A stretch of 64,000 bases of DNA from Lacisediminihabitans profunda. Its GTDB lineage: Bacteria; Actinomycetota; Actinomycetes; Actinomycetales; Microbacteriaceae. Below, one piece after another: positions 24,316 to 24,781 of the stretch (the first letter of the stretch is position 1; the number at the start of each line of letters is the position of its first letter). The stretch is taken from contig NZ_VRMG01000003.1 of assembly GCF_008040105.1 (NCBI RefSeq), positions 124,001 to 188,000 on the forward strand, in the 5' to 3' direction. The translations under genes were made by a program, and so were the position numbers. Below the pieces are notes generated by a model. That model did not search any database. It was not told where the DNA came from and saw nothing but the letters and a program-made list of their open reading frames with translations.

Positions 24316-24479
24316 CCGGCAAGAGTAGTGGAGAGGCCGCGAAAAGTCTCGAATTGGTAACGGAAGGCCCAGAAGTGGGGGTTGAGAACGAGTGCGGATG
24401 AGCGCCGGATTCTGGGCAGGATCCGGCTAATGTCGGCGGTGGATCGTAGGCTGGAAAAAAACTTCCCGACACGCCGAAA

Positions 24480-24495
24480 ACACTAGATGTTGTGG
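24480..24495. promoter_or_regulatory. NrdR-like box upstream of the 27-codon ORF
   Basis: acactagatgttgtgg matches the published NrdR-box consensus acaCwAtATaTwGtgt at 13 of 16 positions. A weaker half-box (…atatagtg, 24513-24528) overlaps the -10 region 33 bases downstream; NrdR boxes normally lie 31-32 bases apart. Control by NrdR, the ribonucleotide reductase repressor, is therefore plausible but unproven. Confidence 0.45.
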
Positions 24496-24526
24496 AATGA
24501 CAAGAGTGTCATTCCGGTTATATAGT
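24494..24526 (+). promoter_or_regulatory. Promoter with 22-bp palindrome for the 27-codon ORF
   Basis: ATGACA (24497-24502) and TATAGT (24521-24526) with 18 bases between form a promoter; TATATA (24519-24524) with 16 is the alternative. The perfect inverted repeat ggaatgaca (24494-24502)/tgtcattcc (24507-24515) covers the -35 hexamer and spacer, so it can be an operator. Transcription should start near 24533. Confidence 0.6.
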
Positions 24527-24615
24527 GAGGACTCACGAAGGCGCCGGCTTAACAACTGGTGACCTTGGGGTGACAAACCGGGGTTACTAAACAACAGACT
24601 TAGGGAGGTCCGAAA

Positions 24616-24699
24616 ATGGACAACGACAACGATTCCATCGGCGGCTACGCAGTACCGGTCGACCCGATGGACGACCTGCAGTGTGACAGCTGCCAGTAA
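24616..24699 (+). CDS. 27-residue peptide with C-terminal CxxC-Gln (novel small protein)
   Basis: A 27-codon ORF of unknown function. It starts 7 bases after a strong RBS GGGAGG (24603-24608). The peptide is acidic at the N-terminus (MDNDNDSIGG), then YAVPVDPMDDL, ending with QCDSCQ as the last six residues. The two cysteines form CxxC, which suggests metal binding or thiol chemistry. The ending resembles the redox-active C-terminal tails of some class I ribonucleotide reductase large subunits, and an NrdR-like box sits upstream. The ORF has its own promoter and terminator and no neighbour in the same transcript. I do not recognise it as a known family. Confidence 0.65.
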   Translation: MDNDNDSIGGYAVPVDPMDDLQCDSCQ

Positions 24700-24708
24700 G
24701 AGCCACTA

Positions 24709-24750
24709 GACAAAGCCCCGGTCGCCAGTGATGGCGGTCGGGGCTTTGTC
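24709..24750 (+). terminator. 18-bp terminator hairpin after the 27-codon ORF
   Basis: The arms 24709-24726 and 24733-24750 pair over 18 bases, including two G-T pairs, around the loop agtgat. The first seven pairs match gacaaag/ctttgtc. It lies 9 bases after the stop and has only a weak U-rich tail, so it may act as terminator or as a stable mRNA 3' end. Confidence 0.8.
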
Positions 24751-24781
24751 GTTAAGCTCTTGCTGTGCAAAGGACTACAGA

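Follow-up and report, generated by a model that had tools for sequence, protein, structure and literature searches.

What was already known about detached parts of ribonucleotide reductase?

Ribonucleotide reductase (RNR) is essential, and the catalytic (alpha) chains of its class I form usually carry their own cysteine arm. The arm is a flexible C-terminus whose pair of cysteines re-reduces the active site, as set out in the part of PMC9669993 concerned with class I, and among the class I sequences counted in the relevant section of PMC9531940, 1737 of 2022 have a C-terminal CXXC while in part of the remainder the cysteines are spaced differently. The closest known system to the one that we describe here is the split class II RNR of Pseudomonas aeruginosa, NrdJa/NrdJb, in which, according to the portions of PMC4520616 that treat it, a second polypeptide gives the catalytic chain its dithiol exchange and is needed in vivo; in the same portions the authors describe the split seen in proteobacteria as unique among non-viral organisms. 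It is a B12-dependent enzyme of class II, and NrdJb, at 229 residues and with predicted folded domains, is encoded in one operon with nrdJa (PMC9669993, in its account of this pair). A class I alpha subunit made from two genes, nrdA-a and nrdA-b, and reported to be functional, is found in Aeromonas phage Aeh1, where nrdA is split by insertion of the mobE homing endonuclease and where, as far as PMC3653736 describes the arrangement, no tail-only peptide results. In the accessible text of openly licensed PMC papers, searched non-exhaustively, we found no description of a free-standing class I RNR tail.

The small gene considered here, from Lacisediminihabitans profunda (Microbacteriaceae), is very probably just such an object, that is, a C-terminal redox tail encoded apart from the catalytic subunit of its class I RNR, which we regard as the best explanation of the evidence as a whole. 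With the fused CxxC tail of class I NrdA it has the sequence motif in common, but that tail is tethered in the same chain, unlike the peptide here. It differs from NrdJb in belonging to class I, in being minimal (about 20-40 aa), in being usually duplicated and partly unlinked, and in its mobility, with copies in viral contigs and on plasmids, and it is in these respects that we rate the split as new.

How is the free-standing gene built and conserved?

The window, by which we mean the whole stretch of 64,000 nucleotides that was analysed, carries the gene at 24478-24752 (Table 1). A first-pass annotation had described a promoter, a palindrome, an NrdR-like 16-mer matching at 13 of 16 positions, a ribosome-binding site, an ORF of 27 residues and a hairpin, and every one of these elements is found where it had been placed. 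Boxes were scored against acaCwAtATaTwGtgt, which we take to be the NrdR-box consensus, and the candidate second box, which we infer from its right half, lies 33 bp from box 1.

Table 1. Features of the free-standing tail gene (positions in the window) and of the RNR genes of the same genome (positions in L040)
Feature	Position	Strand	Remarks
NrdR box 1 (ACACTAGATGTTGTGG)	24480..24495	+	13/16 against the consensus; in the scan used, sole plus-strand site of the window at >=14
Probable NrdR box 2, right half TATATAGTG only	24513..24528	+	10/16 matches; overlaps -10
Palindrome GGAATGACA-AGAG-TGTCATTCC	24494..24515	.	Arms largely kept, loop variable in free copies
-35 hexamer ATGACA	24497..24502	+	Kept in most aligned copies
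-10 hexamer TATAGT	24521..24526	+	18-bp spacer from -35; kept in most aligned copies
Shine-Dalgarno AGGGAGG	24602..24608	+	AGGAGG-like in most free copies
RNR redox-tail peptide ORF (putative), 27 aa, ends QCDSCQ	24616..24699	+	Product MDNDNDSIGGYAVPVDPMDDLQCDSCQ
Terminator-like hairpin, 18-bp stem including two wobble pairs	24709..24750	+	From sequence
nrdA	L040 5183-7651
Second (linked) tail gene	L040 7655-7756		Between nrdA and nrdB
nrdB	L040 7764-8765

Across 30 aligned free copies the promoter, CGACACGCCGAAAACACTASATSTAGTGGAATGACA-N4-TGTCATTCCGGTTATATAGTG, can be recognised by eye every time, in degenerate form in L029 and L031; hadB lies downstream in 24, and a stem of at least 7 bp follows within 75 nt on the 3' side in 26, a count that includes some weak stems and has no shuffled control. 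The palindrome, of which a scan of 36 nrdA upstream regions gave no instance, may be an operator for another regulator or a part of the promoter. A reading of the pattern GGAAT...GTT as a SigR/SigH-type promoter was considered and dropped, because the GTT is not kept in all relatives.

Scans of the peptide returned no Pfam or NCBIfam family, and an Rfam scan of the window gave three tRNAs at the gathering threshold and nothing at the tail gene. The reading frame is conserved in relatives, as the first-pass annotation had required of a real gene: of the 199 genomes searched, 69 (own included) have a match at E<=1. Synonymous change is favoured as well: over the last 19 codons of the 30 free copies, pooled, pN/pS is 0.107 (pN 0.047, pS 0.434), which shows strong purifying selection on the free copy. 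Both cysteines and the terminal glutamine never vary among these copies, and since their codons are nearly fixed too (TGC in 27/30 and 30/30, CAG in 30/30), part of the constraint may sit in the DNA. Most peptides conserve [YF]x[VI]PxDPMDxLQCxSCQ, and at the Pro, Asp-Pro and CxxCQ positions all rows of a 29-row alignment agree.

Which enzyme would the peptide serve?

The genome itself holds a single RNR alpha chain recognised by PF02867, an NrdA of 822 aa, and class III NrdD was not found in it. Comparing the tail with the C-terminus of this enzyme, as had been suggested at the outset, gives a chain that ends ...PRKGFGFGGLAPKSGE / ...ARKGFGAATATELVETAAAPAAAPRKGFGFGGLAPKSGE, with zero cysteines across the 67 residues from TYYLHM onwards, and, adjoining it, a second tail ORF, recovered in a search of the genome and ending VPVDPMDDLQCDSCQ. 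NrdA retains Cys227, Cys441 and Cys456, which we take to be the equivalents of E. coli C225, C439 and C462. It does not read as a class II (adenosylcobalamin-dependent) alpha chain: nrdA adjoins nrdB, and the best PDB matches are 5im3 for alpha and 1syy for beta, the latter being the class Ic beta of Chlamydia. A phenylalanine in place of the radical tyrosine together with a glutamate at the first metal ligand are the criteria for class Ic, and in an alignment with 1syy our NrdB has Phe at the radical-Tyr position (HCMSF against HTHTF) and Glu at the first metal-ligand position, so that by these criteria the enzyme is probably class Ic-like.

Outside the family, but within its order and class, the same CxxCQ tail is found fused to NrdA (G128, G146, G162, G177, G141 and G168), in chains that end ...GGVACPVDPMERLQCESCQ and ...CPVDPQERLQCEACQ. 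A class-level search gave matches in 25 of 394 genomes, own included; 18 of the 19 class-level loci that were read have fused tails (one of the 18 being G141 again), the nineteenth (L181) is cut by a contig end, and the fused chains are 67-75% identical to our NrdA. At the G517 locus (E 9e-6 in that search) the script found no tail ORF. It is these fused homologous tails, taken together with a tail gene between nrdA and nrdB and an NrdA end that lacks cysteine, that point to the peptide as a detached tail.

How general is the split within the family?

Among the 199 genomes searched were 120 from the window's own family, Microbacteriaceae, and 60 of these contain tail peptides, a match in G072 (E=0.046, in a 452-aa frame) having been removed from the set as due to chance. 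The NrdA ends of 57 of the 60 were read, G001, G006 and G112 falling outside this reading: 56 have no C-terminal cysteine (G076, G102 and G081 among them), one (G021) has an apparent frameshift, and a linked tail gene sits beside nrdA in 55 of the 57. At least two tail copies are present in 52 of the 60, counting hits below E=0.1 only and thus leaving out those above it in G006, G034, G066 and G095. As read from the genomes, then, the pattern in the tail-positive half of the family is an NrdA end without cysteine and a CxxCQ tail on one or more separate small genes, the usual layout being one tail between nrdA and nrdB and one free, with an NrdR-type promoter and usually a terminator-like hairpin.

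The tail-negative half, where read, has a different enzyme. PF02867 matches in 58 of these 60 genomes, and the RNR ends that were read, at 20 loci in 19 of the 60, are all NrdE ending CVSCxL; the presence of the peptide thus follows the NrdA or NrdE type, and the even split of 60 and 60 should not be counted as independent events. One genome, G053 (L046, L047), has six tail copies, four of them on two contigs and without an NrdR-like box upstream, and close to one of its copies is an ORF that, judged by eye, resembles a relaxase.

How might a detached tail work, and what else might it be?

In the mechanism that we propose, NrdA would be re-reduced in trans: the peptide would dock loosely at the active-site cleft after each turnover, reduce the Cys227/Cys456 disulfide through dithiol exchange, and itself be re-reduced by thioredoxin or a similar donor, acting bimolecularly in place of the tethered arm. 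A tethered arm has a high local concentration that a peptide in solution does not have, and the excess needed to make up for this would come from a gene of its own, strongly initiated and under NrdR control. In nearly every split NrdA chain that was read, the motif [RK][RK]GFG lies close to the C-terminus or at it (for example, L040 7600-7648); it could be guessed to be a docking element for the peptide, a role that must stay a guess since the motif is present in fused NrdA chains as well.

It is conceivable that the tail is still covalent, with readthrough or a frameshift at the nrdA stop joining the linked tail to NrdA and with the free gene as a spare or regulatory copy. The linked tail does share the nrdA frame in 11 of 51 cases (the own copy and 10 others), where readthrough of the stop could yield some tethered NrdA, but the other 40 are out of frame (frame 2 in 36, frame 1 in 4). 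Measured from where the nrdA stop ends, most candidate starts lie at -4, -1, +2 or +3, often overlapping the stop, and these frames and positions are the geometry of translational coupling, with re-initiation, and not of readthrough; some linked tail ORFs have weak ribosome sites. The strong selection on the free copy also speaks against a merely spare gene, as do two genomes without any linked tail, G065 (100% complete) and G027 (0.93 Mb, 98% complete). In each of these the profile search found one tail locus, on another contig or 33 kb from nrdA and with NrdR-like boxes visible upstream, one PF02867 match, no NrdD and no tail ORF between nrdA and nrdB, so that a tail there can act only in trans, and the cells appear to depend on this supply, if a tail is needed at all. 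An AlphaFold2 model of NrdA joined to its read-through tail (30-row alignment) has a mean pLDDT of 63 and tail blocks at 23-39, a disordered tail, and so poor a model says nothing on docking. The peptide is a separate ORF, mostly unlinked or out of the nrdA frame, and probably not a covalent member of the alpha chain, and we think a tethered tail very unlikely.

A peptide homologous to the arm could also occupy the cleft without reducing anything, as a competitor or regulator that blocks NrdA in the manner of Sml1, the RNR-blocking inhibitor of yeast, and the NrdR-type boxes common to the peptide gene and nrdA would fit this as well. However, NrdA here lacks an arm with which the peptide could compete, in the family the peptide accompanies this type of NrdA in 57 of 57 genomes read, and the Pro, Asp-Pro and CxxCQ positions of the peptide do not vary in the 29-row alignment; we hold a blocker to be slightly less probable than a covalent tail. 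That the product might be a metal-binding or otherwise unrelated small protein, like the tail by chance, is suggested by its CxxC and acidic residues and contradicted by the homologues that form the end of NrdA in fused chains and by the location between nrdA and nrdB, which leaves this the most improbable reading of all, one to which we give almost no credence. Of the three roles that the first-pass annotation had entertained, positive evidence has thus come forward for neither the inhibitor nor the metal-binding peptide, and the thiol tail acting on RNR has gained from the homology to fused NrdA ends, the second copy beside nrdA and the Cys-less NrdA in 56 of 57 genomes. The detached tail, with its C-terminal CxxC homologous to those of class I alpha chains, gives us a separate polypeptide with the redox cysteines and a catalytic chain without them, as judged from sequence.

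Is the free gene under NrdR control?

The suggestion that NrdR controls the gene, also part of the first reading of this DNA, is supported by tandem boxes 32-33 bp apart over the promoter, with box 2 half-conserved, by box pairs that are conserved and common to nrdA, and by an nrdR gene in the genome (match of 151 bits). At nrdA promoters a box like CCACTASATGTxGxGT is followed some 32 bp on by TATATAGTG, the element that they have in common with free-tail promoters, and the threshold of 13/16 is reached at 28 of 36 nrdA loci, 4 of the 8 misses being cut by contig ends. In a sample of the best 80 of 462 matches in genome_contigs, whose titles name Microbacteriaceae genera or just a higher group (and, once, Acidobacteria), 79 loci have enough flank; an NrdR-type box pair is present at 78 of these 79 and a box scoring at least 14 at 69, and the shuffled upstream sequences used as a control gave none. 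In the 4.0-Mb genome a 14-bp box pattern is matched just twice, at the tail gene and at nrdA. The pattern was built from two known sites, so its uniqueness is not strong evidence, and the backwards control (2 forward and 4 reverse matches) makes the whole-genome search weak when taken alone.

In most free-tail and nrdA promoters a GACACGCC motif stands just upstream of box 1 (the window, at 24480, and L040 included), and at most nrdA promoters it is preceded by TGTGGA, presumably a DnaA-box-like element. Tandem boxes about 31-32 bp apart are known NrdR sites in the part of PMC2892513 that describes them, and nrd-boxes of another actinobacterium occur singly or paired in the corresponding part of PMC3848588; the NrdR-controlled RNR operons are thus alike in spacing to what we see, whereas what would be controlled here is the gene for a tail peptide on its own.

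Do viruses and plasmids carry the tail?

With tblastn the peptide is found in Clavibacter phages CMP1 and CN1A, Pontimonas phage phiPsal1 and Pseudanabaena phage Pan2, at E values of 0.02 to 1 only and with complete C..CQ-stop ORFs on inspection; no annotated gene lies under the match in CMP1, CN1A or phiPsal1, and PF02867 is absent from all four phages. In Pan2 the tail is a hypothetical protein of 27 aa (L085 2002-2085), and the assignment to a cyanobacterial host may deserve a check. From IMG/VR we took the best 80 of 379 matching stretches: a tail ORF is present in 79, the fetched flanks lack an nrdA/nrdB match in 77, and an nrdB 80-84% identical to the host's is present in 3. PF02867 was found in none of the 50 records from this sample that were searched whole, many of them fragments in which absence is not proof, and the NrdR-box pair was found at none of its 79 viral copies. 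Ten neighbouring proteins on six viral contigs were scanned, of which eight matched terminase, portal, endolysin/peptidase, helicase or tail families and two had no match. The viral contigs L195, L211 and L262 have a tail gene and a host-like nrdB, with no PF02867 match in the record.

Plasmid matches come from 19 records at E<=10 (listed at E 1e-4 to 0.04), all from Clavibacter, Leifsonia or Gryllotalpicola. Two of the 19 were inspected and both have a complete tail ORF; PF02867 is absent from both plasmid records searched whole. A 33-aa tail on a Leifsonia plasmid (L353 4983-5084) has been named automatically 'ribonucleotide-diphosphate reductase subunit beta', so that public annotation already gives such an ORF an RNR name, wrongly.

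What would this mean for the family?

The viral peptide probably raises the activity of the host enzyme. A wider idea, for and against which we see about equal chances, is that in these bacteria the amount of a diffusible redox peptide, in effect an extra and mobile RNR subunit, would determine RNR activity, and that phages, and perhaps plasmids, would exploit this by carrying, instead of a whole RNR, a minimal auxiliary gene, about 25 codons long, with which the host's own NrdA is driven free of host NrdR control. This points to a phage auxiliary metabolic gene of very small size, of a kind often missed by annotation, an essential enzyme part having been reduced to a mobile microgene. A detached tail might in addition account for some of the class I sequences that have no C-terminal CXXC, and it offers a natural two-component system for measuring how the RNR arm works. 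In the family itself, half of the sampled genomes (60/120) seem to rely on an arm of some 20-40 residues that is detached from the enzyme.
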